Source: Pyruvatibacter sp. HU-CL02332 (GTDB lineage Bacteria > Pseudomonadota > Alphaproteobacteria > CGMCC-115125). Taken from it: a stretch of 64,000 bases of DNA. The DNA lies in assembly GCF_040362765.1 (NCBI RefSeq), contig NZ_BAABWK010000002.1, forward strand, positions 806,001 to 870,000. The letters are read 5' to 3'. The position numbers and the translations under genes are program-made. Below are positions 35,246-53,632 of the stretch, in pieces; the first letter of the stretch is position 1; every line of letters starts with the position of its first letter. Below the pieces are notes generated by a model, which was given only the letters and a program-made list of their open reading frames with translations, did no database searches and was not told the origin of the DNA.

Positions 35246-35271
35246 TAGTGGTTGGTGAGTGGCATCAGACG

Positions 35272-35293
35272 ATATAGGAATAATATCCTATAT
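35272..35293 (-). promoter_or_regulatory. Operator-like palindrome upstream of the SleB-like gene
   Basis: Inverted repeat ATATAGGA (35272-35279) / TCCTATAT (35286-35293), six-nt centre, lying 27 bp before the SleB-like ATG in an AT-rich gap of about 130 bp. The layout suits a dimeric repressor overlapping a promoter. The gap also separates this gene from the holin. Confidence 0.45.
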
Positions 35294-35374
35294 ACAACTG
35301 GAACTCCTCTTTAAAGCGATCTCCAATATCGTACAATTCTATCATAGGTTGTAAATAGTGGTGATTTTGGTTGG

Positions 35375-35770: not shown

Positions 35771-35781
35771 GGGGTGACTCC

Positions 35782-36486
35782 TTAAACGAAATCCGGAATT
35801 TGCAATTTGAGAATGTGAGCGGCGATCTGAATGACGCCGCCGGTGAAATCACCGCCGGTGGCAGTGATGCGGATCGGCGTGTCCGTCGGGTAGGCAGTGG
35901 GTGTTAGGGCGGCATTAAGCTGGCTGTTGATGCCTGTGCCAATTCCATTGCCAAAGCGCTGCAAATCTCCATCCACACCTACGGAGAATGATGTGGGACC
36001 GGTGACTTCCTGGGTTACGAGGCAGGTAACACCCAGCAAAATCGAGCGCTCAGGAATAGCGATTGAGGTGTCAGAAAATGCTGCGGCTGGAATCACATGG
36101 TGTTCCGGCAGCACCTCAGCAATGGTAGCGGCCCCAGAGGGCGCCATTGCGATCCCGGGACGCCAGCGGCCCGACGCAAAGGTGAAGGATTGCTCTTCCG
36201 CTTCGACAAATGCCCTCCAGCCCTGTTTGGGTGAGTGAAACCTCCAGGCACCGTCCTGCCACACAGCCAGCTTGCCGTCATGCCCTGCCCATGCGTCAAT
36301 TGCGGCCTCACCAATGATGTAGCGAGCACCGTCTGCCGGGCTGACAGGCGGTGTGTTTTCGGTTCGGCTCACAACAGATGGCTGGACGAGCACATCCAGC
36401 GCCTGAATGGTTTCATTCACTGTGACGTGCTTTTGCGCCTGAGCGGCGACAAGCATTGGCAAAGAAAGATTGGTCGTTTCAGACAT
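35782..36486 (-). CDS. DUF2793 GTA-associated tail protein
   Basis: 234 residues. N-terminal DUF2793 pattern: TNLSLPMLVAAQAQKHVTVN, ALDVLVQPSV, and GARYIIGEAAIDAWAGHDGKLAVWQDGAWRF in two motifs. The C-terminal half is beta-rich (IPERSILLGVTCLVTQEV, TSFSVGVDGDLQRFGNG). DUF2793 proteins occur at the end of alphaproteobacterial GTA clusters and are thought to be tail-tip or fibre components touching the recipient. Its start overlaps the stop of the large tip protein gene by 8 nt. Confidence 0.87.
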   Translation of the reverse strand: MSETTNLSLPMLVAAQAQKHVTVNETIQALDVLVQPSVVSRTENTPPVSPADGARYIIGEAAIDAWAGHDGKLAVWQDGAWRFHSPKQGWRAFVEAEEQSFTFASGRWRPGIAMAPSGAATIAEVLPEHHVIPAAAFSDTSIAIPERSILLGVTCLVTQEVTGPTSFSVGVDGDLQRFGNGIGTGINSQLNAALTPTAYPTDTPIRITATGGDFTGGVIQIAAHILKLQIPDFV

Positions 36487-39400
36487 TCACGTTGGTCCTT
36501 TTGGGCGTACCGCGGCCAAATGCAATGCTGATCTGGAAGACGTCGCATTCCAGGGCTTGCGGCAATAAGCCGAAATCCTCCAGCTGCTGAGCGGCCGTGT
36601 AGATGAGATTTGGCTGGGACGTCGAAAGCGTCCGGACTGCAACGCCGGCAGATATCACATCCACCTCATATGCCTCGGCGTCCTCGCCGAGCGGTACATC
36701 TGACTGCTCCCAGCTGTCGGCGTTTATGCGCGTACGGCGGATCCAACGAAGCTGGATGTCGCCTGAAGACAGTCGAGCGGCTTTGACGTGCGCAGGAGCA
36801 AACGGTCTTAGTCCGACGCCTGCAAATGCCAGCGTCTGTGTCCGGTATGCCAGGTTCGAGTTGTCCAGCGGAGTGGGACCATATCGCCAGTTGAACGGGA
36901 GGCCGCGCTCAGTGAGGGACAGGCCCGCCTGCCGCAAGGCGCCGGACAGAAGCACAAAGCGACTTCCGACCGGATGGGGATTTTGCATCTGCCCCTCGGA
37001 GCCTGCCTGTCCTCTCAAAAACCCTGACAGCTGATAGGTGTGGGGAGCAACAAGCTCTGCAGATTGAAACTGGATAATCTCGAAACCAGCTTCTTGTGAA
37101 CCAACAGCTGCTATGTTGGCTCCACCAAGCACCGCCAATTGTGTGGCGCTTGACAGGTCGCCGGACACCATCGTGACCTGAACCGAATTGCCACGATCCC
37201 ATCGTGATGTAGGTCCGGGGTAGAAGTCCCAATCGGTCACACCCATGGTGGCAGGAGACGATAGGGCGCTATCAAGCGCAAAACCATTTTCATCCGCCGA
37301 GCGATAAACAGAAACGCTGCCCGGCCAAGGCGACGCGGTGGCGGCTATATGCGGCGCATGGGGGACTTCGTCTCCCCTCAACAATGGCAAATCCAGAAAT
37401 ACGATATCCGGTGTGCCAAACACCGGCGGCGTGGCTGGCAGGCTTTCGCGCACCGGAGCGGCAAGAGCTCCAAAGATGCCCTGTTGTGTTGCAACAGCGT
37501 CAACTTCACGAAAAGGGCCGTCAGCGATGCGGGCGACACGCATGGCGTGGGTGCGACCGGATGCTTCGATGGCGATGACATCGCCTGGATCAAGGGCGAT
37601 CTGCGACGGCGGCAACGCGAATGACGCTTTTTCGCGAGCAATCCAAGCGTCCTGCAATCCTGTCTCGGCTATGCGAATAGCCTCATCCTGACGCAGAACA
37701 AGAGGCAGCGCCGCACCGGCCACTCTGTCTGACAGGGCGGTTTGCCGACGCGCATCAATGGCAGCCTGGCGATAGTCAGCCTCCGCTTCGATGTAAGACA
37801 GCTTGCTTATGGCTGGCAGGTCCGTTTCCTGCGCCCGGACAAATTCAAATGGTGAAGCAGCGCTGCCCTGCGGGACGGCCATGTCTTCATCGGTAGTCAC
37901 CGCACTCGTGGAAGCGCCGCGGTGGCGGAACCGGATTACGCCTTCGCTCTCAACCGCTTCAAAGAAATAGGCCTGCATGAGCGGTGACAGCGCTGCACGG
38001 GCACCCATGGTGCGGTCGATGACGAAACCATCAACGATGCCGGACAGCCCGCTTACGTCAAAAGCAGTGAAGCCCTGTTCCGTCATGATCTGTGCCACCA
38101 GCCGTCCCAGGGGCACCGCGCCGAGACGCCCGGTCAGCCAATGACCAAGCCGCCAGTTGGCACCATCTGACCAGAGATTGGTGGCCTGCGGGAAGGCAGG
38201 ATAAGGGCGTGCGTCCCAAGTCCAGACATGGATGGCATCCGGGGCGACCATGCGGTCTCCGTAGACCGGAGAAACCGGGTTGTTGGCTTCATTGAAATTT
38301 TCGCCGCCGGGAGACCAGTAGTCATGGTGGGCAATCAGAAACTGCCGCTGAATAACGTCATCGCGCAATCCACGAGACGCATAAGGCAGCTGGCTCTCCG
38401 ATGACTTCGGATCGAAAAACACATTGGGCTGGTTGGTGCCACGGTCAACGGCGGGACAGCCAAGCTCGGTAAACCAGATCGGTTTTGACCTGGGCGACCA
38501 CGCCGTCGGTGCGGCGACTTCGTCTCCCCCTACTCTGTTGTAATGGGGATTGGACCACCAGTTGACGAGGTCCTTGTAGCGAAAGACCCATGGCTTGTTT
38601 GCGCTGCCATCGGAAATCGGCGTTCGGTCTTGAGCCACACGATCAGCGGCATTCGCGTAGAACCAGTCGAACCCTTCACCGCCTGCGATATTGGATTTGA
38701 GATAATCGATGTCGGTAATTGATGGCGCACCGGCAAGCGCGTCGAGATGCGACTGGCCGTCACGCCAGTCTGACACCGGCATGTAGTTGTCTATGCCGAT
38801 GGCATCGATGTTTGGGGACGCCCACAAGGGATCAAGATGAAAAGTGACATCGCCCGTCCCGTCCGTCGGCTGATGACCGAAATACTCGGACCAGTCTGCC
38901 GCGTAGGTCACTTTGGTGCCTGAGCCGAGCACCGACTTTACGTCTGCGGCGAGTTGCACCAGGGCATCAACGGCGGGGTGACCGACGTCGGAACGGACCC
39001 AGGTGAGGCCGCGTAACTCTGTTCCAATTAGAAATGCAGCGACACCTCCGGCTGCCTTGCACAGATGCGCATAGTGGAGAACCTGACGGCGGTAGGACCA
39101 TTCGTCAGGGCCGGTGTAAATCACCTTGGTGCCATCGAGCGTGAAGTCAGAAGCAGAAGCTGTTCCAAAGAAGGCATCTACCTGGACGGCTGCTGTTGCA
39201 GTGCGGTCGGGAGATCCCACCTCGCCCGGCGCTGGTGTCACGGTGATCCGGCCGCGCCATGGATGGGCCGGCTGCCCGGCAATTCCCGTGTAGGGGTCCA
39301 GCAGCGTGTTGTCTGCCGGTATGTCCATCATGATGAAGGGGAAGAAGGTGGTAGCGACGCCCCGTGCCGTCAGATCCTTGATGGCCGCAATGACACTGGC

Positions 39401-40492
39401 GTCTGACGGTGTGCCGCCATATGCGGGGCGGCTGTCTATCTGACTGACCGCGTCTGCGGTTGCGCGTGTGAGTTCAGCAACTGACCAGTCTGAGGGGGTC
39501 GTTAGTGTGTCGTCCCGTTCCACTTTTGGGCGAACCGTGCACTCGCCAGCTCTCAAGTCGTCGCCAAACCATGAGACGATCAAACCTGCCCGCACCAGGT
39601 TTGGACAGGTCTCCTGCAACTGATCTATGGCGATCTTCCAGTCAGTGCCGCCAAGGGCGTTGTTCGTGTTGACCGGCTGCGACACACCGCCTGCGAAAAT
39701 CTTTGTAACCGGCGACGGCTCATACCCAAATTCGGTTGAGCCGGGAACGATGGTGACTGCCTTGATGGCGTTTTCAACATCATTCAGCGACCGGAATACC
39801 TCGACCTGGAGCTGCGGCAATCTGTTGCCGAACTGCGCGAGCGGCAGACGCTCAAAAACGATGTACGCCAGTCCGCGAAAGGCAGGAACATTCCCGGATC
39901 CTTCGACCGCCTCAATGAGGGCATCCGGCATCTGGTCTTCCGCGCCCGTATGGACACGGTAAGTGATCTGACTGAGATCAAGAATTTTGCCGTCGGCCCA
40001 TATGCGGCCAACGCGGGTGATGGGACCTTCACACAGGCCCAGCGCAAAATTGCCGAAGTATTGGTATTCGGTTGTGGTGGTGCGGGTGGTTGTTGAGCTG
40101 GACCCTCCGCCGCCTCCGCCTTTGCCCCCTCCGCCACCCGAAGCTGATGACGTTGCTTCTACAATCGTCTCGACGATCTTCTCCTCAAAGTCGGTCGCCC
40201 ATATGAGTTGACCGGCAAGGCGGGCGCGACCATAGGCGCGAGGGATTGATGCCCCCTCACTTGATGCCATGACCTGCAGATCAGACAGCCGGGGCCCCTC
40301 GTCGGCAAACTCAAAGAGCTGGTTCTGACTGGCTGGCGCGAAAAGCTGCTGATCAATCAGCGACCCCACACCAGATCCAATAGCGCTCCCCAGCGCGGAA
40401 CCCGATATGGAGCTTCCCAAAAAGGAAATGCCATTGGGCAGCAGCGCGCCACCAAGGGCGGACCCGGCGGAGGACAGGACAAGCGATGCCAT
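36479..40492 (-). CDS. GTA g15-type tail tip protein with glycoside hydrolase/TIM-barrel domain
   Basis: 1337 residues, close to the R. capsulatus g15 'megatron' size. It starts with a hydrophobic Gly/Ala-rich segment. A very glycine- and threonine-rich linker (about 118-143) separates it from the baseplate-like part. The central part holds the GTA TIM-barrel region (e.g. DWSEYFGHQPTDGTGDVTFH, GIDNYMPVSDWRDG, WFTELGCPAVDRG); the C-terminal part is the phage tail tip region with beta-sandwich repeats. It closes the distal tail and probably engages the recipient envelope. The gene is translated 10 bp after g14. Confidence 0.95.
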   Translation of the reverse strand: MASLVLSSAGSALGGALLPNGISFLGSSISGSALGSAIGSGVGSLIDQQLFAPASQNQLFEFADEGPRLSDLQVMASSEGASIPRAYGRARLAGQLIWATDFEEKIVETIVEATSSASGGGGGKGGGGGGSSSTTTRTTTTEYQYFGNFALGLCEGPITRVGRIWADGKILDLSQITYRVHTGAEDQMPDALIEAVEGSGNVPAFRGLAYIVFERLPLAQFGNRLPQLQVEVFRSLNDVENAIKAVTIVPGSTEFGYEPSPVTKIFAGGVSQPVNTNNALGGTDWKIAIDQLQETCPNLVRAGLIVSWFGDDLRAGECTVRPKVERDDTLTTPSDWSVAELTRATADAVSQIDSRPAYGGTPSDASVIAAIKDLTARGVATTFFPFIMMDIPADNTLLDPYTGIAGQPAHPWRGRITVTPAPGEVGSPDRTATAAVQVDAFFGTASASDFTLDGTKVIYTGPDEWSYRRQVLHYAHLCKAAGGVAAFLIGTELRGLTWVRSDVGHPAVDALVQLAADVKSVLGSGTKVTYAADWSEYFGHQPTDGTGDVTFHLDPLWASPNIDAIGIDNYMPVSDWRDGQSHLDALAGAPSITDIDYLKSNIAGGEGFDWFYANAADRVAQDRTPISDGSANKPWVFRYKDLVNWWSNPHYNRVGGDEVAAPTAWSPRSKPIWFTELGCPAVDRGTNQPNVFFDPKSSESQLPYASRGLRDDVIQRQFLIAHHDYWSPGGENFNEANNPVSPVYGDRMVAPDAIHVWTWDARPYPAFPQATNLWSDGANWRLGHWLTGRLGAVPLGRLVAQIMTEQGFTAFDVSGLSGIVDGFVIDRTMGARAALSPLMQAYFFEAVESEGVIRFRHRGASTSAVTTDEDMAVPQGSAASPFEFVRAQETDLPAISKLSYIEAEADYRQAAIDARRQTALSDRVAGAALPLVLRQDEAIRIAETGLQDAWIAREKASFALPPSQIALDPGDVIAIEASGRTHAMRVARIADGPFREVDAVATQQGIFGALAAPVRESLPATPPVFGTPDIVFLDLPLLRGDEVPHAPHIAATASPWPGSVSVYRSADENGFALDSALSSPATMGVTDWDFYPGPTSRWDRGNSVQVTMVSGDLSSATQLAVLGGANIAAVGSQEAGFEIIQFQSAELVAPHTYQLSGFLRGQAGSEGQMQNPHPVGSRFVLLSGALRQAGLSLTERGLPFNWRYGPTPLDNSNLAYRTQTLAFAGVGLRPFAPAHVKAARLSSGDIQLRWIRRTRINADSWEQSDVPLGEDAEAYEVDVISAGVAVRTLSTSQPNLIYTAAQQLEDFGLLPQALECDVFQISIAFGRGTPKRTNVNV

Positions 40493-40502
40493 AGCTCAGC
40501 TT

Positions 40503-40973
40503 CTATTGCGAAATGGGACGTGGTGACGGCTCGAGCGGCCAGCGGAACGCAAATGCGAGCCGAGCATGCCACCAGCGACCCAGCTGGGTTTCACATACGG
40601 CGCGGTCTGCATAGGCATGGATCATTCGATCATTGTCGACATGAATCCCTGCGTGTTTTGCGGGTCCTGAAGGAACCATGCGGAACAACAGGACATCACC
40701 GGGCCGCACATCCATCACGTCGATGGCGATGAGATGGCGGGCGGCAGCATCATGCAACGTCTCAACGCCGGATACGTCTGCCCAATCCGCTGTATAGGCT
40801 GGCGTGTGTTCCGGTTCATGCCCGTACAGCTCGCGATAGATGCCCCGGATCAGACCAAGACAATCCGTGCCGGCACCCTGGCAACTGGCCTGGTGGACAT
40901 AGGGTGTGCCGAGCCAGCGTTGCGCACAGCCGACAACCAGGCCGGGGTCCATGTATGAGATTGCTGTGGGCAT
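40503..40973 (-). CDS. GTA g14 NlpC/P60 cell-wall peptidase
   Basis: 156 residues. NlpC/P60 fold with catalytic Cys38 in GTDCLGLIRG, and a histidine in SGPAKHAGIHVDND (about 107), followed by the third polar residue region MIHAY. R. capsulatus g14 is a tail-tip peptidase that opens the recipient peptidoglycan during DNA injection. It lies between g13 (3-bp gap) and g15, the conserved GTA order. Confidence 0.94.
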   Translation of the reverse strand: MPTAISYMDPGLVVGCAQRWLGTPYVHQASCQGAGTDCLGLIRGIYRELYGHEPEHTPAYTADWADVSGVETLHDAAARHLIAIDVMDVRPGDVLLFRMVPSGPAKHAGIHVDNDRMIHAYADRAVCETQLGRWWHARLAFAFRWPLEPSPRPISQ

Positions 40974-40976
40974 GAG

Positions 40977-41864
40977 CTACTGAAGTGAACCGCCGGAGTG
41001 ACCATCACCGCGCCTTGGATAGCTGGTGACAAAGTCATTTCCGGGCATCAATGGAAATCCACGGAAGTTGAGATCGTTGGAAAATTTGCTTCGGCAGGTC
41101 CCGAAACTCTTGTCGCATCCAGCCGTGACGCTTAGCTGATCACCGACTTCAAATTTGTTGGGTGCCGGTTGCCAGAACTCAAGAATTGCATGTGCGCCAT
41201 CGTTGACGTGGCCCCGCAACTCAAATGTCAGGTCCTGGTTGGCACCGGTAGTGGTCAGAGCAAGACCGCGCGCGAACCAATCGCTTGTGAACTGCTCAAG
41301 TCCGGCGACCTCAATCAGTCGGTTGTCCGTCACATTGGAGACTGTCGCAATGGCCGTGTAAGCCGCATTGGACAGATCAACATTGCAACGACCATCCCCC
41401 AAGGCTGCGTCACAGGTAAACTGATAGATGCGACCGATAGGCTGGTTGAGCTTGTGAGCCAGACCACGAATTTCGGCCCGGAAAGCGCTGCGGCCACGTG
41501 CAACTTCGCCAAGATTGCCCTTGCGCATCAAGACACGCTGCGACACGTCGGACCAGTTCACCCGCCAAATCTCGACGTCAGCGTCGTCGAACCTGCCGGA
41601 TATCAGATCGTCTTCCGTCAGACTGTCAGATGTAAGCGCGCCGGCGACATCGAGATTGTCTACCGACAAACCCACCGAACTCTCGATGGCGCTGGCATTC
41701 ATGCCAGCCACCCCTTCGAATGTGACACTGTCAAACGTCAGATCTTCATCGTGGTCGGTGAAGCCGAACACCACACCATCGCGGCGTGTCAACTTCCAGC
41801 AGCTGCACAGGGTGGTTGTGCCGCTATCAAGATGCGCCTGAAACTCTGGAGAGAGTGACTTCAC
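40977..41864 (-). CDS. GTA g13 tail hub protein (DUF2163/BR0599 family)
   Basis: 295 residues. DUF2163 pattern: TTLCSCWKLTRRDGVVFGFTDHDEDL near the start and the C-terminal cysteine-rich part with CDAALGDGRCNV and AGCDKSFGTCRSKF. Those cysteines are the ones proposed to bind an iron-sulfur cluster in the R. capsulatus hub. It sits at the tail tip between distal tail protein and tip protein. The ATG overlaps the g12 stop as ATGA. Confidence 0.94.
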   Translation of the reverse strand: MKSLSPEFQAHLDSGTTTLCSCWKLTRRDGVVFGFTDHDEDLTFDSVTFEGVAGMNASAIESSVGLSVDNLDVAGALTSDSLTEDDLISGRFDDADVEIWRVNWSDVSQRVLMRKGNLGEVARGRSAFRAEIRGLAHKLNQPIGRIYQFTCDAALGDGRCNVDLSNAAYTAIATVSNVTDNRLIEVAGLEQFTSDWFARGLALTTTGANQDLTFELRGHVNDGAHAILEFWQPAPNKFEVGDQLSVTAGCDKSFGTCRSKFSNDLNFRGFPLMPGNDFVTSYPRRGDGHSGGSLQ

Positions 41865-42499
41865 AGCCGTATCTCCAAAATGGGAATGGCAGGAATATCA
41901 CCTGCAGCAAAATCACTGAGACGTACGTCCAGAAAGTCAGTGTCGAACCGGACGGGTACGTCGAATTCAAAGCCGGCGGTAATGACGGCATCCATTGGCG
42001 GAATGCTGAGGAAGGAAAACGTGACCGTTCCGGACTGTGTGTCCACTGTGAAGTCGGTTAGTGAGGTTTTCTCCACCCCATCGACAGCAACCCGGACGGT
42101 CCCTTCAACAGGCTTGAGAATTTTGCGGCTGTAAGTCTGATCCCCGCTTTGATAGGTGCGCACCAGCTGAAACGTTTCGGTTGCACCATCACCGATGGCG
42201 ATCTGCTGGTCTGTTGCAACGGCGTGCTGCTGGGGTGCACAGGATTTGAAGTCGCTGTGATCCTTGTAACGAAAACCGTGAAGGCGACCGCGGCGCGCCT
42301 CAAAGAATGCAATCACGCGATGCAGGTCGTCTCGGGTCTGAATGCCGTATCCAGCGTTGAACCGTCGCCGAGAATGCGCCCAGGGCGTATTGCGCTCCTC
42401 GTGACCACTTGCGAGTTCCACAATTTCCGTGCGGCGCTCAGGGCCACCAGATGACCCAAAGGATATATCGGTGGGGAACCGGACTTCATGAAATGCCAT
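41861..42499 (-). CDS. GTA g12 distal tail protein (DUF2460)
   Basis: 212 residues. DUF2460 starts with FHEVRFPTDISFGSSGGPERRTEIVELASGHEERN and has RRRFNAGYGIQTRDDLHRVIAFFEARRGRLHGFRYKDHSD, split between two motifs. It forms the ring closing the tail tube in GTA particles. Located between tape measure and hub genes, coupled to g13. Confidence 0.95.
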   Translation of the reverse strand: MAFHEVRFPTDISFGSSGGPERRTEIVELASGHEERNTPWAHSRRRFNAGYGIQTRDDLHRVIAFFEARRGRLHGFRYKDHSDFKSCAPQQHAVATDQQIAIGDGATETFQLVRTYQSGDQTYSRKILKPVEGTVRVAVDGVEKTSLTDFTVDTQSGTVTFSFLSIPPMDAVITAGFEFDVPVRFDTDFLDVRLSDFAAGDIPAIPILEIRL

Positions 42500-42510
42500 G
42501 ATCTACCGCC

Positions 42511-43101
42511 CTACTGAGTACGCCGGGCGCGCGACAAAGCACGACTCATGACCGCAGCGATTTGCGATTCAGATCGTTGAAAGGACTGCGGGTCGGGAGA
42601 CGCGACATTGACGACGATGGAAACCGGTTGCGCACCCCCCTGTGTGCGTACACCCAGACGGCCGTCTGTCCCCCTCGACAATGGCATGATGGCTTCCGGT
42701 CCTGCTTCACCCATCAGGCCGGTGCCCGAGCGAAGGGGAAATGTGGTTGGGCCGGCCACGATGCCACCGCGTGCAAAAGGTGTGATATTGCCTCCGGACA
42801 CCACGGCGCCATTGGCGGCGCCCAGCAGACTTCCCAACACGTTGCTCGCAGCCGACGATGCAAAATCCTGCACCGGGTTGAGTGCCGCCCGGAGGACAGA
42901 GCTCGACATCTGCAGTGCCAGGTTTCTGAAGACCTCAGACAATGACTGACCGCCTGAAATGGCCTGTTCAAAAGCGCCGGTCAGAGACGCCCCAATCGAC
43001 TGGCCGATCTCGTCAGCAAAATGGCTCACATCATCGAGGCTGGCTTCAAGGTCTGTCAGGTCCGCCCCAACGGATACGACAAGTCCATCATTTTCGTTCA
43101 T
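42511..43101 (-). CDS. GTA g11 tail tape measure protein (short)
   Basis: 196 residues, similar to the short GTA tape measure and fitting a short tail. The N-terminal part is helical (LEASLDDVSHFADEIGQSIG). The middle carries the lambda-type tape measure motif FARGGIVAGPTTFPLRSGTGLMGEAGPEAIMPLSR, in two pieces. It sets tail length and is threaded by the tail chaperone proteins encoded immediately upstream. Its ATG overlaps the g10.1 stop as ATGA. Confidence 0.92.
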   Translation of the reverse strand: MNENDGLVVSVGADLTDLEASLDDVSHFADEIGQSIGASLTGAFEQAISGGQSLSEVFRNLALQMSSSVLRAALNPVQDFASSAASNVLGSLLGAANGAVVSGGNITPFARGGIVAGPTTFPLRSGTGLMGEAGPEAIMPLSRGTDGRLGVRTQGGAQPVSIVVNVASPDPQSFQRSESQIAAVMSRALSRARRTQ

Positions 43102-43313
43102 GCGTCTGGAAAAGCCTCCATGAGGGCGTGAAGGTCCCGCCGCGCCAGGGGGGCGGGCGCGGCGGGCTGGGCCATGCCGAGTGCCGTCGCGCCATACAAT
43201 GCGCGCACGAGTTCACTTGGTGTCATGGCCCAAAACGAGTGGGGTGAGAGAGCGAGAATTCCGAAACCCAGTTCCATCAGGCGCTGCCAGGGGAAGCAGA
43301 CAGCGCGCGCTAC
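43098..43313 (-). CDS. GTA g10.1 tail assembly chaperone, probably made by -1 frameshift from g10
   Basis: A 71-residue stretch in the -1 frame relative to g10, running from the codon after the slippery site to a TGA overlapping the tape measure start. The peptide contains CFPWQRLMELGFGILALSPH, SFWAMTPSELVRALYGA and ends HALMEAFPDA, the pattern of GTA g10.1 (Phage_TAC_6/DUF2376). No ATG, GTG or TTG exists in this frame between an in-frame TAG inside g10 and the ATG at 43277. That ATG would cut off the conserved FPW motif and lacks a Shine-Dalgarno. With the signals described at 43281-43319, the likely product is a 195-residue g10–g10.1 fusion, as in lambda gpG-T. Confidence 0.8.
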   Translation of the reverse strand, partial: VARAVCFPWQRLMELGFGILALSPHSFWAMTPSELVRALYGATALGMAQPAAPAPLARRDLHALMEAFPDA

Positions 43314-43319
43314 TTTCCC
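43281..43319 (-). promoter_or_regulatory. Predicted programmed -1 ribosomal frameshift site
   Basis: Slippery heptamer G-GGA-AAG (43313-43319) in the g10 reading phase, followed at once by the g10 stop TAG (43310-43312). A 6-nt spacer leads to a hairpin, GCGCTGTC (43299-43306) pairing with GGCAGCGC (43281-43288): 8 pairs with one G-U, 10-nt loop. GGGAAAG is the heptamer used in the lambda G/T tail chaperone frameshift. Slippage joins g10 to the g10.1 frame exactly. Confidence 0.8.
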
Positions 43320-43684
43320 GGCAGGTCCGCCGGTGATTGCGAGGCGGTTTGCGGATCTTCGGTCGCACGGTCTGTCAGGGGTCTAAATGTGGCTGCCATC
43401 AGATCTGCAACGATGCGGACAAAGCCCGCCGCGCCGCCATCGGTTGTCATCATGGCTACGTCAGCGTCAGAGACTGGTTGTCCGGCGCCGCGCAGTCCCG
43501 CTGCAATGATCCTGGTGCAATCGCGTGCGCTCAACCGTCCGGACTGAAGGCGCTCGGCGACAGCAAGAATATCCTTGCCGTCAAAGGCATCTTCTAACTC
43601 CGCCAGTGCGCCTAAAGTGAGAACCAAGGTCTCCGCCTTGCCATTCAGGTGAGCGGTGATTTCTCCACGGTGCCGATTTGCCAT
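43310..43684 (-). CDS. GTA g10 tail assembly chaperone (TAC)
   Basis: 124 residues. Pattern of the GTA TAC family: MANRHRGEITAHLNGKAETLVLTLGALAELEDAFDGKDI in two parts, then LSARDCTRIIAAGLRGAGQPV. It coats the tape measure during tail assembly in the donor cytoplasm and is absent from the mature particle. The last two sense codons GGA AAG and the preceding G form the slippery site, so a fraction of ribosomes should add the g10.1 domain. It lies 5 bp after the tail tube gene. Confidence 0.93.
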   Translation of the reverse strand: MANRHRGEITAHLNGKAETLVLTLGALAELEDAFDGKDILAVAERLQSGRLSARDCTRIIAAGLRGAGQPVSDADVAMMTTDGGAAGFVRIVADLMAATFRPLTDRATEDPQTASQSPADLPGK

Positions 43685-43689
43685 GATTT

Positions 43690-44106
43690 CTAGGCGGCAG
43701 CTGTGAAGGAGAGTGCACTGGCCGACGCGAGAGACAGGTCATAGGTCATTTCACCGTCATGCTCGCCGGAATAGTCCAGGCTGGTTATCTGGAAGGCCCC
43801 TTCGACCGTTCCGAAGTCCGGAACGATCACCTGCCAGTTTCGGATCGTCCCGGCAAAAAACAGTTCGCGGACAGAGGCGTCGGTTGCGGCGTCCTTGAAG
43901 ACGCCAGCGCCACTGAGGGAGGCTGATTTGGCGCCTGCCTCGCCCAGGAGTTCCCGCCATGCACCGGTCGAATCCGTGTTGGTGACGTCAACTGTCTGGG
44001 CGTTAAAGGACAGCGAGCGGGACCGCAGGCCAGCCACTGTCTCAAAGGCCCCCACACCATTTGTGTCCAGTTTGAGCAGCAGGTCCTTGCCCTTTTGCGC
44101 AGTCAT
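43690..44106 (-). CDS. GTA g9 major tail tube protein (TP901-1 family)
   Basis: 138 residues. It begins MTAQKGKDLLLKLDTNG with VAGLRSRSLSFNAQTVDVTN, the TP901-1 family signature, continues through SGAGVFKDAATDASVRELFF, and ends EGAFQITSLDYSGEHDGEMTYDLSLASA. Hexameric rings stack to form the tail tube. Position between tail terminator and chaperone genes is as in all GTAs. Confidence 0.95.
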   Translation of the reverse strand: MTAQKGKDLLLKLDTNGVGAFETVAGLRSRSLSFNAQTVDVTNTDSTGAWRELLGEAGAKSASLSGAGVFKDAATDASVRELFFAGTIRNWQVIVPDFGTVEGAFQITSLDYSGEHDGEMTYDLSLASASALSFTAAA

Positions 44107-44130
44107 TGTGTGTCTCCTTTATTGATGATG

Positions 44131-44541
44131 TCAGCCCGCATCCGTCACGGCGCGATAACTCAGGACACCGTGCCAGGTCTCCCCGTCGGGATCGGTGAGA
44201 ATGCGCGCGTCCTGAAAACGAAGGTTGATGAGAACGCCCAGCTCAAGGGGCAGCGCCTGATCGTTGAGGCACGCATGGACCGCATCGGCGATATCGCGCA
44301 CAACCCGGCGGCCACCATCGCGCACCCAAACATGCAAGCGCAGATCGTGAACCGCGCCCACTTCAGTTCCGGTGCTCCAGTCGCTCCATGCGCCGTCACC
44401 CAATGTGATGTATGGCAACTGGGCATCGGCAGGCACACGGTCATGGACGTGTGGGCCGCCAAGCTGGGAGAGGAGAGCCGCATTGGTTGTGAGCGCTGCA
44501 AAGATTGCCTTTTGCAGGGACCAGCTTTGGGTTCCTGTCAT
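44131..44541 (-). CDS. GTA g8 tail terminator (DUF3168)
   Basis: 136 residues. DUF3168 features: SLQKAIFAALTTNAALLSQLGG, VHDRVPADAQLPYITLGD, LRLHVWVRDGGRRVVRDIADAVHACL. It caps the tail tube at the head-proximal end. Start codon overlaps the stop of the HK97-gp10-like gene as ATGA; 24 bp separate it from the tail tube gene. Confidence 0.93.
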   Translation of the reverse strand: MTGTQSWSLQKAIFAALTTNAALLSQLGGPHVHDRVPADAQLPYITLGDGAWSDWSTGTEVGAVHDLRLHVWVRDGGRRVVRDIADAVHACLNDQALPLELGVLINLRFQDARILTDPDGETWHGVLSYRAVTDAG

Positions 44542-44930
44542 CTTGAATGCCCTTGAAGCGAGTGCCGGATAGCCAAGCGAATACGAGCCTTGAAACCTGC
44601 AAGGTGCTTGCGCGCAGCGGGGCCCAGCCAGGGATAGGCAGGCATTTTGCGCGTGCCGAACTCCAGATACGCGCCGTAGTCGAGAAGTGTTCGAACATTG
44701 GCGAGCAAGCCGTCGGCAGAGCGAACCACATGCAATGACGACGCCAATTCGCCAGTGCGAGACACGGGCAGACGTGACGCGTTATCGAGATGTTCGCGCG
44801 CCTCACTTACAATCGCGTGGGCCGTCAACTGCACTTGGGTGACCGCTGCGGCCGTCGCGGCCGCCTTGCGGCGCTTCATTGTATGGCGGTTTTCATCCTT
44901 GCCTTTTACGGAGACCGATACCGGCTTCAT
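44538..44930 (-). CDS. HK97 gp10-like putative head–tail completion protein
   Basis: 130 residues from the ATG at 44930, which overlaps the upstream stop as ATGA; an in-frame ATG 24 nt earlier is less likely. Signature of HK97-gp10_like: TAHAIVSEAREHLDNASRLPVSRTGELASSLHV, followed by the conserved YGAYLEFGTRKMPAYPWLGPA region. These proteins act at the neck during head–tail joining. The classic R. capsulatus order has no separate gene of this kind between g7 and g8, so this is an additional or more phage-like component. Confidence 0.88.
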   Translation of the reverse strand: MKPVSVSVKGKDENRHTMKRRKAAATAAAVTQVQLTAHAIVSEAREHLDNASRLPVSRTGELASSLHVVRSADGLLANVRTLLDYGAYLEFGTRKMPAYPWLGPAARKHLAGFKARIRLAIRHSLQGHSR

Positions 44931-45265
44931 GACTGATGTTCCCGGCATCGGCATTCAATCCAGCGTCTGCGCCCATCAGGATCGACCACCGCATAGATCT
45001 CCAAGGTCTGTTGCGTGGTGCGAAACCGCTGTCCCGGCCTTATGTCGGTTCGAAAACGGCAGGTCACGCGGTAACTGATGCGGCCGCCTGGCTGCTCGGC
45101 CTCAACGCCGCGCGCCGGAGACAATGGTGTGATTGCGCCCCAAAGCGTGGCCGCAAGTTGCCAGCTGCGCGCTGTACCGCCGCCGCCATCGCTTACGAAC
45201 ACAGGTTGCTCCAAAATCAGGCGATGACGCATGTCGCCCGGGCGGGTGACCTGATGAGAGGTCAT
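44927..45265 (-). CDS. GTA g7 head closure protein (head–tail adaptor)
   Basis: 112 residues. Pattern of the phage head closure/SPP1 gp16-like family: GDMRHRLILEQPVFVSDGGGG, WQLAATLWGAITPLS and YRVTCRFRTDIRPGQRFRT ending IYAVVDPDGRRRWIECRC. It forms the stopper ring below the connector. It follows g6 by two nt and is coupled to the next gene by ATGA. Confidence 0.93.
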   Translation of the reverse strand: MTSHQVTRPGDMRHRLILEQPVFVSDGGGGTARSWQLAATLWGAITPLSPARGVEAEQPGGRISYRVTCRFRTDIRPGQRFRTTQQTLEIYAVVDPDGRRRWIECRCREHQS

Positions 45266-45267
45266 GA

Positions 45268-45846
45268 TCAGAGCCGCCTTAGCCGATAGTTGGCGATCAG
45301 GGCATCGACCGTTCCCGGGATTCGCGAAGCTGCTCCATTTATGACCACGGGGACGCGGTTTTCATACCAGTGGGCTACCAGAAGCAGGACAGCGTGGGCC
45401 AGTGGCGGTGGAACGTCGGTTGCAGCATCGCCGTATCCTGCAATGTAGCGAATACGGATCGAGGCATTGGCGTGCGGCGCTGATGGCCACGCAACGCCCG
45501 GCTTTAATGCCAGGTATGGCGCCAGACCGGTGGCTTCAACTTGATACATGCCTTGGTCCCAGACCGTTTGCCCCCCTTCGGGACTTAGGAGAGTGACAGA
45601 CTGAACCGTCTGCAAGGGTGGCATCGGCAGAGTGATGCGACGTCCATTTGGCCATCGGTCCAGCACGGCCTCGAATTCGCGGGTTAGCAGCGCACGCCCC
45701 GTTGAGTTTTCAATGGTGATGCGAGCCGTGGCAATGAGAGAGGCAAGCAACGCATCTTCGTCTGGTGCTTCGATGCGCAGCAGTGTTTTGGCCTCGGCGA
45801 GCGTTACCGGCTCAACCAAAGGGTCGGTGATTTGTGTGATGTGCAT
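45268..45846 (-). CDS. GTA g6 head–tail connector (adaptor)
   Basis: 192 residues. Pattern of phage gp6-like connectors: DPLVEPVTLAEAKTLLRIEAPDEDALLASLI, with EVLDRWP-like region (EAVLDRWPNGRRITLPMPPLQ) and the C-terminal helical part HAVLLLVAHWYENRVPV. It docks on the portal. Located right after the three extra genes that separate it from the capsid gene. Confidence 0.94.
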   Translation of the reverse strand: MHITQITDPLVEPVTLAEAKTLLRIEAPDEDALLASLIATARITIENSTGRALLTREFEAVLDRWPNGRRITLPMPPLQTVQSVTLLSPEGGQTVWDQGMYQVEATGLAPYLALKPGVAWPSAPHANASIRIRYIAGYGDAATDVPPPLAHAVLLLVAHWYENRVPVVINGAASRIPGTVDALIANYRLRRL

Positions 45847-45848
45847 GA

Positions 45849-46772
45849 TTACCCGACGATTGACCGGTAGGCTTTGGTGGAAACAGGGATAGTCAGATCA
45901 CCTGCAACGGCAGCCAGCGTTGTCGTGCTGCCGTCCTCATAGGTGACGTCGAATTCGTGGTTGGGTGGCAGCCCGAAATTGGTATTGATGTCCGTGACGG
46001 CAATAGATGCCTCCGCACGCATTGCTGTTTGTCCAGGCGTGAGGATGGGCGAAGAAAGCGGCCCCTGTTGTACGTCGGGCCAGACAACAAGCACGTCAGT
46101 GGCAAAAGTATCGAAACGATTGTTGATGGTTGCTGCAAACCCACCGGCCGATTGCTCAAGTTGGAAAAGTTGCCAGTCTTGAGTAGATGTGCGCTCGACA
46201 GGCAACGCGCCGACGCCGAGGCCAAATTTTGCTTCAGCCACAACGCCCGCCTGCTTTATCCACGCCTGAATGCTATGGGCACCTGAGGCAAAAGCATCGG
46301 ACAGATTCAAGAAAGTGGATCCCGCCGCGGGCATCACCAGACGGTACGCCGTGCCTGACGTACCGTCGGGCAGAGTGGTTTGTACTGCTGAGACGCTGGT
46401 GTTTGCCCCTGTTCCAAAAGTAGTGGTTGTGACGTCGAGGGGGTTGAGGCGTGTTCTTGCGACCTCTGAGACCAAACCGCGTTGCGGAACAATGAGTGCC
46501 TGATCTACGCCAGCAGCGATTGGCAAGTTCTGCGGCGTGAGTGCCCAGGCGCTGGTGGTGCGGGTGACATTTACCCCTGGGACGTTGGAAAACGCGGCAA
46601 TGCTGTTCTCGTCGGCCATGTATCGATCATTGCCAAAGTCCAAAGCAAGGGTGGTCCCGGCAGGCCACCATCCCCCGTTCCCTATTGCCAGTCTGGATGA
46701 CAGCGAATGGGAAAGGGGGCCGGTCGCCTGAGTGGCAGGCGGCGGTGTGGGACTGTTCATCATGTGATGCAT
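45849..46772 (-). CDS. Putative GTA surface/fibre protein, beta-rich, between capsid and connector
   Basis: 307 residues if started at the ATG at 46772; ATGs at 46763 and 46760 are also possible. I do not recognise the family. A Pro/Thr-rich N-terminus (SPTPPPATQATG) is followed by a region with LALDFGNDRYMADEN, and a lectin- or jelly-roll-like middle with SIQAWIKQAGVVAEAKFGLG and WQLFQLEQSAGGFAATINNR. It ends VTYEDGSTTTLAAVAGDLTIPVSTK. No cysteines or membrane segments. Composition (Thr, Ser, Ala, Gly) resembles virion decoration or fibre proteins. It sits 5 bp after another small structural-like gene and 2 bp before g6. Head-fibre role is inference. Confidence 0.75.
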   Translation of the reverse strand: MHHMMNSPTPPPATQATGPLSHSLSSRLAIGNGGWWPAGTTLALDFGNDRYMADENSIAAFSNVPGVNVTRTTSAWALTPQNLPIAAGVDQALIVPQRGLVSEVARTRLNPLDVTTTTFGTGANTSVSAVQTTLPDGTSGTAYRLVMPAAGSTFLNLSDAFASGAHSIQAWIKQAGVVAEAKFGLGVGALPVERTSTQDWQLFQLEQSAGGFAATINNRFDTFATDVLVVWPDVQQGPLSSPILTPGQTAMRAEASIAVTDINTNFGLPPNHEFDVTYEDGSTTTLAAVAGDLTIPVSTKAYRSIVG

Positions 46773-46777
46773 CAGGC

Positions 46778-47047
46778 CTAGATGCCTGCGGTCAGGCTGG
46801 GAGACGCAGCACCTGTCACAACGGCTCGCAGTTTGCATCGACCGATGCGGAAATTGCCGGCACCTGGCGCTGAAAACGTTGCGTCTGGTCCCACATCAAT
46901 CCAGTTGGCCGCGCCATCAAAACTTGCCTGAAGCGTTATGGTGCCGCCGTCGAACACGCCGTGCGCATAGAACGTGCCGTCGCCGCCGAACCAGTCGATT
47001 GCCGCACTGGTATCGTTGGTGGTCTGGTTTGAGAAAAACAGCGCCAT
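46778..47047 (-). CDS. Small phage-like structural protein (89 aa), unknown
   Basis: 89 residues from the ATG at 47047 with GGGAGG shortly upstream; the open frame above that is not protein-like. The sequence is beta-rich: MALFFSNQTTNDTSAAIDWF, then GTITLQASFDGAANWIDVG and GNFRIGRCKLRAVVTGA. The arrangement (source-of-noise plus W-I-D-V) is typical of small immunoglobulin-like virion proteins. It may be a decoration or fibre-attachment protein working with its two neighbours. No family name claimed. Confidence 0.72.
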   Translation of the reverse strand: MALFFSNQTTNDTSAAIDWFGGDGTFYAHGVFDGGTITLQASFDGAANWIDVGPDATFSAPGAGNFRIGRCKLRAVVTGAASPSLTAGI

Positions 47048-47081
47048 ATGCGCCTCCCTTGGTGAATTAATCGGACGTGCG

Positions 47082-47507
47082 CTAGACAGGCTTGGCGTGG
47101 GCGTGACCGAGCAGGGCAAGAGCAGCCATTGGGGTGCCGTTGGTGTGGGTGCCTGTGAAATCCGCCACCACGCGGGAGTACCGACGGCCACCGATGTAAC
47201 CGATGCGGTAGACTGCCTCGTCCTCAGCAGCGTCGTCGATCGTGGCGAAAAATCCAGCGGCGTCGACGTCAGCGCCGATCACATCGGGCGTGGTGACAGC
47301 CTCCCAGACTGACGCGTCGTGGGAATGCTCCAGCCTGATGTCGATCTTGAGGGAACCCGACAGTGTGTCGCCGGACTGACCGGCGATGACAGCGTGTTCA
47401 ACGCTTTCAAAGCCGCGCCGATCCACAGTGGTTGAAGTTGTGTCAGCAGAGACGACGGCGGGCACAAGTGTGTGCCGCACCGCCACCTGATTATGCAGGT
47501 CGCGCAT
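47082..47507 (-). CDS. Phage-type protein following the capsid gene (141 aa), possible decoration protein
   Basis: 141 residues. The pattern RHTLVPAVVSADTTSTTVDRRGFESVEHAVIAGQSGDTLSG in two stretches, later YRIGYIGGRRYSRVVADF and the end LLGHAHAKPV, resembles a protein found right after major capsid genes in many alphaproteobacterial prophages. Its function is undetermined; a head decoration role is plausible. It is 35 bp after the capsid stop. It is not part of the classic RcGTA gene list. Confidence 0.78.
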   Translation of the reverse strand: MRDLHNQVAVRHTLVPAVVSADTTSTTVDRRGFESVEHAVIAGQSGDTLSGSLKIDIRLEHSHDASVWEAVTTPDVIGADVDAAGFFATIDDAAEDEAVYRIGYIGGRRYSRVVADFTGTHTNGTPMAALALLGHAHAKPV

Positions 47508-47542
47508 GTAGGATTGTCCTGAATTGTCAGTAGGGGGATGGA

Positions 47543-48859
47543 TTAGGAAGCGGCAAACTTCATGAGTTTGATGGCTTCGAAGTTCTGCACACCGCCGCCT
47601 ACGCGCTTTGTTGTGTAGAAGAGCACGTAGGGTTTGCGGGTATAGGGGTCGCGCAAGGTCCGCACGCCGAGACGGTCCACCACCAGATACCCACGGCGGA
47701 AATCGCCAAATGCCAATGCGTTGGCATCCGTTGCGATGTCCGGCATGTCTTCGGCTTCGGTGATGGCGAAATTCAGCAATGTGGCTGGCTGACCGGCAAC
47801 CAGGCCCGGCTGCCAGAGATAATTGCCGTCTGCATCCTTGAACTTGCGGATCTCGCTCTGGGTTGACCGGTTCATCACCCAGTTGGCGTTGGATCGGTAA
47901 CCAGACTTGAGGCTGTAGACGAGGTCAACCAGGGCATCTTCCGGGTTTGACGTCGCAAACGCACCGTTGGAGCCCGATGGGACGTAGCCCAGCTTGCCCC
48001 AACTCCACGTGTCGTCGTCGACAATATTATATGACAGGAAACCGCGCGGTTTGCGGACGCCGTCACCGTGGACGAAAGCTGTGCCTTCCTGTTCGGCGAA
48101 GGCGATCTGCACTTCCGATGCCAGCCACTCTTCGATGTTGACCGCACTGTCATCCAGCAATGACTGGGTGGCCGCTGGCATGGCGTAGAGCTCCATGGTG
48201 GGGAACTCCATCTCGGACAGAACCGGCGCAGCCGTCTCGGGGCGGGTTTCTTCCTCGCCTACCCAGCCGGACATGGCGCCTGCGGTCGCGATGGGCTTCT
48301 TCAGGGATGAGCCGGACACCTGACGTACATCAGAGATGGCACGGATGGGCGAGGCTTCGGACAGCACGCGCCCAATCTCACTTTCGGTTTCGCTGGGGAC
48401 GAGATAGCCGCCGTCCGGGTCTGTCTGCGTGGACAGGGCCTTGACCTCAAGCGCTCGAAGATCGAACGCGTCGCCCTTGCGCATGTAGCCGTCCCAGGCG
48501 CGTTTATGCTCAAGCGCGGAATGAGAAAGCATGCCGGTGCTGACACCACTACGGCCGGGTCGGCTGGATTTCAGCAGCAGCTCGTCCATGCGATGCTTCT
48601 GTTCATCCATGGCGGCATTGATGCGGTCCACCTTGTCGGAGGTCACAACGTCGGACGACATGCGCTTTTCGATCTGCGACAGACGCGTGTCGTTGGCATC
48701 CTTGAAATGTTCAAAGGCCGACAGGAACTCGCCGAAGGCATCGCGCAATTCTGCGGACTGCGGGTCCCAGGCATTCGCGGAGGCAGCTGTGGTCGCCTCA
48801 GCCTTGTGTTCAAAGGGGGGTATGGCAGCGGGGTGGGCTGCCTTGGTTTCAAGCGTCAT
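47543..48859 (-). CDS. GTA g5 major capsid protein (HK97 family)
   Basis: 438 residues from the ATG at 48859, overlapping the protease stop by 11 nt. An N-terminal helical delta domain (about 25-105, with FGEFLSAFEHFKDANDTRL) is expected to be removed by the prohead protease near KALSTQTDPDGGYLVPSET. The mature HK97 fold follows, with SPIRAISDVRQVSG, WVGEEETRPETAAP, NIEEWLASEVQIAFAEQEG and ending YTTKRVGGGVQNFEAIKLMKF. It assembles the small GTA head that packages host DNA. Confidence 0.97.
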   Translation of the reverse strand: MTLETKAAHPAAIPPFEHKAEATTAASANAWDPQSAELRDAFGEFLSAFEHFKDANDTRLSQIEKRMSSDVVTSDKVDRINAAMDEQKHRMDELLLKSSRPGRSGVSTGMLSHSALEHKRAWDGYMRKGDAFDLRALEVKALSTQTDPDGGYLVPSETESEIGRVLSEASPIRAISDVRQVSGSSLKKPIATAGAMSGWVGEEETRPETAAPVLSEMEFPTMELYAMPAATQSLLDDSAVNIEEWLASEVQIAFAEQEGTAFVHGDGVRKPRGFLSYNIVDDDTWSWGKLGYVPSGSNGAFATSNPEDALVDLVYSLKSGYRSNANWVMNRSTQSEIRKFKDADGNYLWQPGLVAGQPATLLNFAITEAEDMPDIATDANALAFGDFRRGYLVVDRLGVRTLRDPYTRKPYVLFYTTKRVGGGVQNFEAIKLMKFAAS

Positions 48860-49484
48860 GCGGATGGGGCTCCTTTGCCTGTTGCATGCTGCGGGGAGTT
48901 TTGGAGGGCGCAATGGCTTTGCCGGCGCGGCGCATGACGCGCGCCAGAGCGTGCGACTGCGCTGCTGAAAAAGGGTTCAACGGATGTGTGTCCTGTTTGA
49001 CCTGCGAGATGCGCGCAGCATCGAGCATGGGAAAGGTCACAAGTGAGATTTCCCACAGGTCGATTTCATGAAGCAGACGACCTCCGCCCTGACGACGCTC
49101 TGCGGTGACGGCGTGGAAGCCGATGGACAGACCGGTCAGCGCGCCTGCCTTAAGAAGCGCATGGGCGTTGCGTCCATCCTGAGCATCAAGGGCCAACCGC
49201 CCTTCGACCCACAGGCCGCGCGCGTCCTCACGCAATGACGTCCAAACGCCTACGGGCCGTGACGGCTCATGTTGATAGAGCATTGCGATGCGCGACGTAC
49301 CGCGACGGTGCAAGGCAGATGCGAACGCGCCTGGCGATACCACGTCCTTTTGGTCGTCAGCCTGCCCAAAGAGGGAGGCGTAACCTGCAAACGTGCCGTC
49401 ACCTGTGTCCTGCACACGTGCTGTGGCGATAACGCCGGCGCGCGCAGGCGCGTCGGCGCGCTTCAATGACAGCGGTCGGGTCAT
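48849..49484 (-). CDS. GTA g4 HK97-type prohead protease
   Basis: 211 residues. Serine protease of the HK97 prohead family: FAGYASLFGQADDQKDVVSPGAF, catalytic His72 in MLYQHEPSRPVGVW and Ser120 in GALTGLSIGFHAV, followed by EIDLWEISLVTFPML. It trims the capsid delta domain during head maturation. Located between the small coiled-coil protein and the capsid gene, as in other GTAs. Confidence 0.95.
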   Translation of the reverse strand: MTRPLSLKRADAPARAGVIATARVQDTGDGTFAGYASLFGQADDQKDVVSPGAFASALHRRGTSRIAMLYQHEPSRPVGVWTSLREDARGLWVEGRLALDAQDGRNAHALLKAGALTGLSIGFHAVTAERRQGGGRLLHEIDLWEISLVTFPMLDAARISQVKQDTHPLNPFSAAQSHALARVMRRAGKAIAPSKTPRSMQQAKEPHPHDA

Positions 49485-49513
49485 TCAGATCTCATTTGTG
49501 TTGAGGGGGCGGT

Positions 49514-49765
49514 CTACTTGTCGCCCAGCCGGTCCAGCTTGGTCTCGATGCGGTCCACGGACTGGCGCAGATAACGCATCTGTTCTTCCACCCGCGCCGT
49601 CCGTTCACCGATCATCGAGCTGGCAGAAACCTCGCGCTCGAGATAGTCGATGCGCTGCATGGCCGCCCCGGCCCACAGAAGCGCCCCGGCGGTCTGCAGC
49701 GACATGGCGGCGATCAAAGCAATCGGCACGCGTTTGTCGAGGTGCCAGCCTGTCGTGTCAGTCAT
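49514..49765 (-). CDS. GTA g3.5-type small membrane/coiled-coil protein
   Basis: 83 residues. A basic start, one membrane helix (VPIALIAAMSLQTAGALLWAG) and a charged coiled coil (RTARVEEQMRYLRQSVDRIE). Matches in size, location and layout the g3.5 gene between portal and protease in alphaproteobacterial GTAs; function unknown. Its ATG overlaps the stop of the zinc-ribbon gene (ATGA). Confidence 0.8.
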   Translation of the reverse strand: MTDTTGWHLDKRVPIALIAAMSLQTAGALLWAGAAMQRIDYLEREVSASSMIGERTARVEEQMRYLRQSVDRIETKLDRLGDK

Positions 49766-50571
49766 TTATCAAGTGATGTCTTTGCTGCAGGTTCGAGGTC
49801 CCAGGCATTGCCACATCGGGGGCATGAATCCGGTGACTTGCTTCTGGCGATTGGCATTTTGCCAGGCCTCTCGTTCTCTATGCCAGCACGCGATACCGAT
49901 AGCCCGCATCTCGGACACCGAACCGACATCTGCCATTTGATGTTTGCGAAAAACAGGGCGGCAACAATCAGAAGTGCGGGGCCTACATAAATCCAGCTTG
50001 TCCCAGTGGATTGGAAAATCAACAAAACGACGACGGCCAACGGAAAAGCCAAGGTTGGGGCGCTCGACCTGCGGACGCGCCTTGTCTGTTCCTCCTGCAC
50101 TGATACTCCGTACGGTGAAGGAATGTCGGGCACAATGGGGCGTGCCTGTGCAACCTTCACAGTTGCACCCGGACTGCTGGTCGAACACTCCGAATTTCGG
50201 GCTCGAGTCCCACCATCGCTTGCCTTACGCATTTGCGTGAGCGATGCACCGCACTTCACACATGCGGTTGGAAATTGCGTTGGACCAATCATTGAATGAA
50301 ACCCGTAGACGCGCTCACCGCAACCCGGACAAGTGTAGTTGCGCGCGAGACGCACCGCTCCCAGCCTTGCGCCAATCGCAACCACCAACAACACAACAGC
50401 AGAGTAAAAGACGTAGGTGAATCCAAGGAAGTAGGCGACCACAAAAACCACCGCAGACGGTGTCCCGATCACGACCGCAAAGAGGCTCAGCAATGAAACC
50501 GCGTTTCTTCTCGTCTCCGACCGCATGTGTATGGTCCACAGAGTTCCTGCATTTAGGCCGACATGGCTCAC
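49762..50571 (-). CDS. Membrane protein with two zinc ribbons embedded in the GTA operon
   Basis: 269 residues from a GTG at 50571 that overlaps the portal stop (GTGA); an ATG at 50526 is an alternative. Two hydrophobic regions (about 25-72 and 170-212) each carry two probable membrane helices. Each is followed by a cysteine cluster: CPGCGERVYG...CVKCGASL after the first, CPRCGLSVS...SCPRCGNAW after the second, so the protein looks internally duplicated. No family recognised, and no counterpart in the standard GTA gene order. Coupled by overlapping start/stop codons to portal and g3.5, so it is expressed with the particle genes. It may be an acquired cargo or control gene. Confidence 0.82.
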   Translation of the reverse strand: MSHVGLNAGTLWTIHMRSETRRNAVSLLSLFAVVIGTPSAVVFVVAYFLGFTYVFYSAVVLLVVAIGARLGAVRLARNYTCPGCGERVYGFHSMIGPTQFPTACVKCGASLTQMRKASDGGTRARNSECSTSSPGATVKVAQARPIVPDIPSPYGVSVQEEQTRRVRRSSAPTLAFPLAVVVLLIFQSTGTSWIYVGPALLIVAALFFANIKWQMSVRCPRCGLSVSRAGIENERPGKMPIARSKSPDSCPRCGNAWDLEPAAKTSLDK

Positions 50572-51755: not shown

Positions 51756-51828
51756 GTTTGCTTTCGGGTTGGCGCCGCCCATGGGCCCTCCGGTCAAGCC
51801 GGAGGGAGAGCGGTGTGTTGGCATGAGG

Positions 51829-53148: not shown

Positions 53149-53563
53149 GATGTGCCTTGGTGTCGTGGATGTCCGCGTCGGTGTTCGGTTTGTCGTAGCG
53201 GGCGGCCAGGGCCATCAGCTTCTCAAGCACCTGCGTGAGCGAGCCAAGCAGCCTGGTCTCGTGCTCGCTGTCGCGGGCCGCACGGTCTTTCTGGCCAACT
53301 GATTTTTCCAGCTCATTGATGAGAGTGCCGAGGCTGGCACTCAGGCGTGACAGCATTGCCAGCGATACATCGTCAGGTCGCGCCACCGTGTCCAGAATGA
53401 CGCCGCGTACCGGAAGCGGCTTGCGGCGGCGTGGCCAGCCATGGGAACGGGCGTGTTTGTAGAGCTGCGATTGAGTAATGCCGTATCGCGCCATGATCTG
53501 CACGACCGTGCAGTCACCGTCGCGATAGGCTGCCTCGATGGCAGGCCAGTCGGGGTGTGTCAT
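53048..53563 (-). CDS. GTA g1 small terminase
   Basis: 171 residues. N-terminal helix-turn-helix of terminase small subunits: DWPAIEAAYRDGDCTVVQIMARYGITQSQLYKHARSHGWPRR in pieces, with VVQIMARYGITQSQLYKHA as the recognition part. A central coiled-coil region follows (LSASLGTLINELEKSV..LLGSLTQVLEKLMALAARYD). Its last 34 codons overlap the large subunit gene in another frame. First gene of the cluster and preceded by a strong promoter. Longer than the R. capsulatus g1, but same position and fold type. Confidence 0.88.
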   Translation of the reverse strand: MTHPDWPAIEAAYRDGDCTVVQIMARYGITQSQLYKHARSHGWPRRRKPLPVRGVILDTVARPDDVSLAMLSRLSASLGTLINELEKSVGQKDRAARDSEHETRLLGSLTQVLEKLMALAARYDKPNTDADIHDTKAHHDRIVSALAERVARLGNDRTADALLAGADTPGS

Positions 53564-53632
53564 TTGATCTGTGATTTGTGGGATCAGCTTGGGTGGGCCT
53601 GATTGTCAGACCCAATTCTTGAGCGTGAAGAG

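Follow-up and report, generated by a model that had tools for sequence, protein, structure and literature searches.

We propose that the RcGTA-type gene transfer agent (GTA) encoded in the window, the whole 64,000-nt stretch of DNA analysed here, makes its tail chaperone g10 together with a 195-residue g10-g10.1 fusion by -1 frameshifting, a reading to which sequence comparison lends a probability of about 0.87. According to this model, g10 and g10.1 would be the two tail-assembly chaperones of the particle. The majority of ribosomes would terminate at the TAG that follows GGA AAG and release g10, while a minority would pause at a hairpin 6 nt downstream of the slip site, slip one base back on G GGA AAG with their tRNAs re-pairing on GGG AAA, and thereby bypass the stop to yield the fusion. 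By analogy with lambda gpG, g10 would be the abundant chaperone that coats the tape measure protein; by analogy with gpG-T, the fusion would form the bridge to g9 and recruit tail-tube subunits. We infer the occurrence of slippage, its rate, and the chaperone function of the products from the arrangement of the locus (Table 1) and, above all, from its relatives, which rather than the single window locus carry the main support for frameshifting.

Viewed across the alphaproteobacterial GTAs, the second tail chaperone is likely to be made interchangeably by start-stop overlap or by -1 frameshifting, the latter with no fewer than four families of slip site, whose stimulators differ (a Shine-Dalgarno (SD)-like element with CCCTTT, a coding-region hairpin with GGGAAA). 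A domesticated element would thus have retained a recoding signal from phage, losing or rebuilding it time and again. The frameshift interpretation is well supported and, as judged from their sequences, extends to about half of the GTA loci in the sample.

Table 1. Features of the g10/g10.1 locus and its surroundings (window coordinates).
Feature	Position	Strand	Remarks
RcGTA-type head-tail cluster g1-g15, contains the feature under study	36479..53563	-	
g11, short tape measure protein, 196 aa	42511..43101	-	NF058675 RcGTA_tape, 1.2e-60, 205 bits, just under the 220 cut-off
g10.1, tail chaperone 2, -1 frame; 71 codons past the heptamer + TGA	43098..43313	-	
Predicted stimulatory hairpin, 8 bp, 10-nt loop, 6 nt 3' of the heptamer	43281..43306	-	3' arm = W-Q-R codons
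FPW motif of the TAC_6 domain, 5' of the first in-frame ATG (43277)	43287..43295	-	invariant in A2
g10, tail chaperone 1, zero frame, 124 aa	43310..43684	-	PF11836 Phage_TAC_11 'GTA-gp10', 4.5e-29, above cut-off
Slippery heptamer G GGA AAG, final two g10 codons	43313..43319	-	TAG 43312-43310 directly 3'
Last -1 frame stop (TAG) 5' of the heptamer	43383..43385	-	

The initial annotation had read the end of g10 as G-GGA-AAG-TAG and joined the two frames at GGGAAAG, which proves exact to the base: g10 finishes as CTG CCG GGA AAG TAG, and the -1 frame reads GGG AAA GTA GCG CGC GCT GTC TGC TTC CCC TGG... until a TGA at 43100-43098. The conserved chaperone domain that it had placed in this frame is indeed there, matching PF09550 Phage_TAC_6 (2.2e-16, above cut-off) and falling just below the cut-off of 56.1 bits for the TIGR02216 rcc01693 family (3.3e-14, 52.9 bits), and its figure of 195 residues for the fusion is confirmed as 124 + 71. 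As in lambda G/T-type systems, this second domain overlaps the end of the first gene just 5' of the tape measure gene, the GGGAAAG heptamer (of the form XXXYYYZ) stands in zero-frame phase within the overlap, and the domain has no independent start. The -1 frame is open from 43382, and the earlier claim that it holds no ATG, GTG or TTG between the in-frame TAG and ATG 43277 was recomputed and holds; its only near-cognate starts before that ATG are ATC 43337 and CTG 43280. Over the 21 window genes (6397 in-phase codon positions), in-phase XXXYYYZ heptamers occur 20 times and GGGAAAG once, at the g10 site; the chance of meeting any in-phase XXXYYYZ in the 23-codon overlap is p ~0.07, and of meeting GGGAAAG p ~0.004. 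Taken alone, these figures do no more than suggest that the heptamer is there beyond chance. Transcriptional slippage at the window site is ruled out by an A run of only three. The host genome encodes tRNA-Lys with both UUU and CUU anticodons, and consequently slippage on AAG should be lower than in E. coli. The spanning peptide LPGK-VAR that had been put forward for detecting the fusion would be cleaved by trypsin exactly at the K/V junction.

Automatic gene calling would presumably settle on ATG 43277, the first ATG, GTG or TTG in its frame, and g10.1 could then be a separate protein initiated internally. This is very improbable. The ATG encodes the conserved Met of FPWQRLM, inside the FPWxxLM motif, and that Met is also present in most loci with a proper upstream start; initiation there would drop FPWQRL, whose FPW is invariant, and would leave the heptamers of the related loci unexplained.

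These relatives comprise 283 loci from IMG/VR, GTDB genomes and whole-genome searches, grouped into 211 clusters at 85% nt identity. The g10 and g10.1 domains were located with HMMs purpose-built for the survey, and each locus was scored for the relative frame, for starts up to 25 codons upstream of FPW, and for in-phase heptamers in the overlap. In 200 of the 211 clusters g10.1 lies in the -1 frame, 84 of these having an ATG or GTG, 14 a TTG only, and 102 no start. The junction alignment across alphaproteobacterial GTAs that the initial annotation had called for thus finds heptamers where the start is missing and few where it is present: an in-phase XXXYYYZ occurs in 94/102 no-start and 21/84 ATG/GTG clusters (Fisher 3e-22, a value inflated by the relatedness of the loci), and heptamers in the two other phases occur in 12/102 and 11/102 no-start clusters. 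In the first set of clusters, the heptamer was present in 57/63 without a start versus 9/59 with one, and the start-bearing clusters overlapped the g10.1 start with the g10 stop as NTGA in 53 of 59 cases. Shuffling the overlap codons of this set gave an expectation of 15.1 +/- 3.2 heptamer clusters for the 57 observed, and equal-length windows in the body of the same g10 genes held a heptamer in 1.8%. When loci whose heptamer overlaps the FPW codons were excluded, 40/48 were still positive. Tree-based independent pairs (n=26) went 9 vs 1 in the expected direction, with a median p of 0.02; the pairs on well-supported branches number only 8, too few for any power.

The conservation of FPW points the same way. 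FPW lies upstream of any -1-frame start in them and is nevertheless conserved, which indicates that this stretch is translated; in one locus (L067) a -1 stop stands immediately 5' of CCCTTTC, so that the heptamer is the sole access to FPW. Counting against frameshifting, the site in the nearest relative (L002; 81% identity across residues 1-103) is GGAAAAG, an incomplete XXXYYYZ. Another relative (L003) has GGGAAAG-TAA at the same site as the window. The no-start loci come largely from uncultured contigs or from genomes without a species name; those with a name include Hyphomicrobium zavarzinii, Filomicrobium insigne, several Ancylobacter, Stappia indica and Bosea sp. 117. Homologues with a separate g10.1 start, which the initial annotation had named as evidence against its proposal, do exist (84/211 clusters), but in lineages other than the window's, including Rhodopseudomonas and Parvibaculum. 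In Phyllobacterium sp. 628, a stop replaces the Trp codon of FPW in g10.1, and this copy is probably broken.

The congeners raise the question of decay, on which reading g10.1 would be lost and the -1 frame would reflect either erroneous sequencing or a mutation that shifted the frame. The cluster is missing wholly or mostly from two of the three congeners, and g10 and g10.1 were found in none of the three. In one (G121), the whole 18.7 kb cluster (window 34952-53646) is cleanly absent and the flanks, about 89% identical, are joined; in another (G225), g1, g2, g15 and DUF2793 are kept at the same place, and a 445-aa histidine-kinase-like ORF replaces g3-g14. The GTA cluster is ancestral in the genus and is being lost, and it is not a freshly integrated prophage. 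However, decay at the g10/g10.1 junction itself is highly doubtful, because the -1 relation is the rule in both forms of the locus, because unrelated lineages would each need to have acquired the indel at 43310-43320, almost invariably on a heptamer, and because the remainder of the GTA cluster in the window is intact.

If frameshifting is the route to g10.1, the no-start loci achieve it with several slip sites: CCCTTTC/G, GGGAAAG/C, AAACCCT and AAAAAAA. CCCTTTC/G is the commonest family (61 clusters). Its heptamer mostly overlaps the FPW codons (CCC TTT CCC TGG), the preceding Pro being CCC, whereas in start-bearing loci the position before FPW is mostly CCG or another residue. Where loci with the same stop position use TTC as the Phe codon, a GGGAAA heptamer is found upstream instead. 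In the 61 CCCTTT loci, pairing with the anti-SD of 16S rRNA peaks for 8-mers that start at -24 to -18, and the resulting SD-like element ends 10-16 nt upstream of the heptamer, with a mean best energy of -9.6 kcal/mol; an element of -8 kcal/mol or better is present in 84% of CCCTTT loci versus 5% of start-bearing loci. Six loci of one Alphaproteobacteria family (L280, L282-L285 and L287) have an A AAA AAA run at the g10/g10.1 junction. For the AAAAAAA loci, transcriptional slippage in place of ribosomal frameshifting is possible.

In the GGGAAA class, the candidate stimulator lies downstream. The 8-bp hairpin that had been predicted six nt past the heptamer does form (43306-43299 pairing with 43288-43281; MFE -14.5 kcal/mol), but against shuffled sequences it does not stand out (z -0.9 to -1.5). 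It is weaker than the others of its class and by itself would not have convinced. In eight close relatives (seven GGGAAA loci and L002), hairpins that begin 2-6 nt past the heptamer in MFE folds reach z -2.7 to -5.2. When GGGAAA loci and L002 are considered together, the linker that follows the heptamer shows specific complementarity to the W-Q-R codons of FPWQR in 9 of the 16 loci open to this test (p <= 0.05 against shuffled linkers), versus 7% of start-bearing controls. A nine-sequence alignment has 90% of its cells paired, against 22-64% once the partner is displaced by 1-3 columns. One pair of the hairpin is UA in five sequences and CG in four. In GGGAAA sites close to the window's, the WQR codons and the 5' arm covary. 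Scanning DNA for GGGAAA combined with the hairpin 3' arm returned six IMG/VR contigs, most of them already in the locus set. The downstream hairpin is absent in the CCCTTT and AAACCC classes and is not a general feature.

These elements also bear on a further alternative, in which translation of g10.1 begins at ATC 43337 or CTG 43280, neither of them a standard start codon, or resumes by re-initiation once g10 has been terminated. Near-cognate codons are present in the -1 frame, and the end of g10 and g10.1 are near each other. Nevertheless, this is the least probable of the readings considered: CTG 43280 would also lose FPW, ATC 43337 sits 9 codons before the g10 stop, and neither a non-standard start nor re-initiation predicts the heptamers, the SD-like elements or the hairpin.

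In phage lambda, gpG and gpG-T are reportedly made by a programmed -1 frameshift (Levin 1993; Xu 2004, 2013, 2014; reviewed in PMC5009743). Lambda's heptamer is G GGA AAG. The window locus has this heptamer too, and further shares with lambda an adjoining tape measure gene, a pair of chaperone domains in -1 relation, and a slip placed close to where the first gene ends. It differs from lambda in its chaperone families (PF11836/PF09550), in belonging to a host-encoded RcGTA-type GTA with a very short tape gene, and in a slip site that directly precedes the zero-frame stop and is followed by a hairpin. The lambda proteins occur at about 30:1 and neither is in the virion; G binds the tape protein and T recruits the tail tube subunit (PMC5009743). 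In families, order and cluster, g10/g10.1 of the Rhodobacter capsulatus RcGTA are all like those of the window, and the RcGTA papers treat them as two separate genes, in agreement with the initial annotation's remark that g10.1 is usually listed on its own; the second chaperone has been named g10.5 (PMC11409702). Two loci, L162 and L163, whose g10.1 in our reading resembles the Rhodobacter form, differ from the window in lacking a slip site and in having a start that overlaps as ATGA. The dnaX-type -1 cassettes combine a heptamer, an SD-like element and a stem-loop (PMC5009743). The CCCTTT class resembles them in its upstream SD-like element and the GGGAAA class in its hairpin about 6 nt downstream, whereas the slip codons differ and the GTA outcome would be a fusion by stop bypass rather than the early termination of dnaX.

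A -1 frameshift has been annotated in the tail assembly proteins of Rhodobacter capsulatus phages (PMC4882933, PMC8601537); unlike the window's element, these are infectious phages, and the same papers report no frameshift for the GTA. In a possible Wolbachia GTA, a +1 frameshift has been proposed in a hydrolase. A full-text literature search, whose scope did not include the likeliest place for an earlier mention (Xu et al. 2004), found no frameshifting at g10/g10.1 described for an alphaproteobacterial GTA, as the initial annotation had supposed, and phage-record searches gave 3 records each, all distant and none with annotated slippage. The mechanism is known already; the kind of element is new, and the family-level pattern appears undescribed.

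At present, g10.1 is either annotated in GTAs as a small gene of its own or overlooked. If about half of GTA lineages make g10.1 solely as a fusion, gene counts, completeness scores, and g10/g10.1 knock-outs need to be re-read, and in such lineages a g10 stop mutant would also remove g10.1. The putative recoding signal would serve only the assembly of a working tail, and its conservation would be independent evidence of selection for particle production. Furthermore, frameshift and start-stop overlap appear to swap within one gene pair, and consequently the question of why phage tails use frameshifting becomes testable in matched lineages.

The assignment to the RcGTA type follows from the surrounding genes. 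The head-tail genes g1-g15 stand in RcGTA order and encode a terminase, an HK97-type portal, protease, capsid, connectors, tail tube, tape, distal tail protein (DUF2460), hub, NlpC/P60 peptidase and a GTA_megatron baseplate protein (1814 bits), and g11 has the short tape (about 200 codons) of this type. Surveyed loci of both classes, no-start and start-bearing, share this synteny and its short tape gene. Among the no-start loci whose flanks are long enough (n=46), g11 and g12 occur in 46/46, g9 in 45/46 and g13 in 45/46, and the g10.1-g12 gap that holds the tape has a median of 630 nt, equal to that of the start-bearing class. In the window, the g11 ATG overlaps the g10.1 stop as ATGA (43101-43098); given this position, the coupling of tape translation to upstream translation in the frameshift form may depend on shifted ribosomes. 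Three ORFs lie between g5 and g6 (45849-47507, minus strand), two of which were searched in Pfam without a match; to our knowledge, RcGTA has no ORFs there. A further ORF of 269 aa (49762-50571, minus strand), between the portal gene g3 and g3.5, has weak zinc-ribbon matches and hydrophobic stretches.
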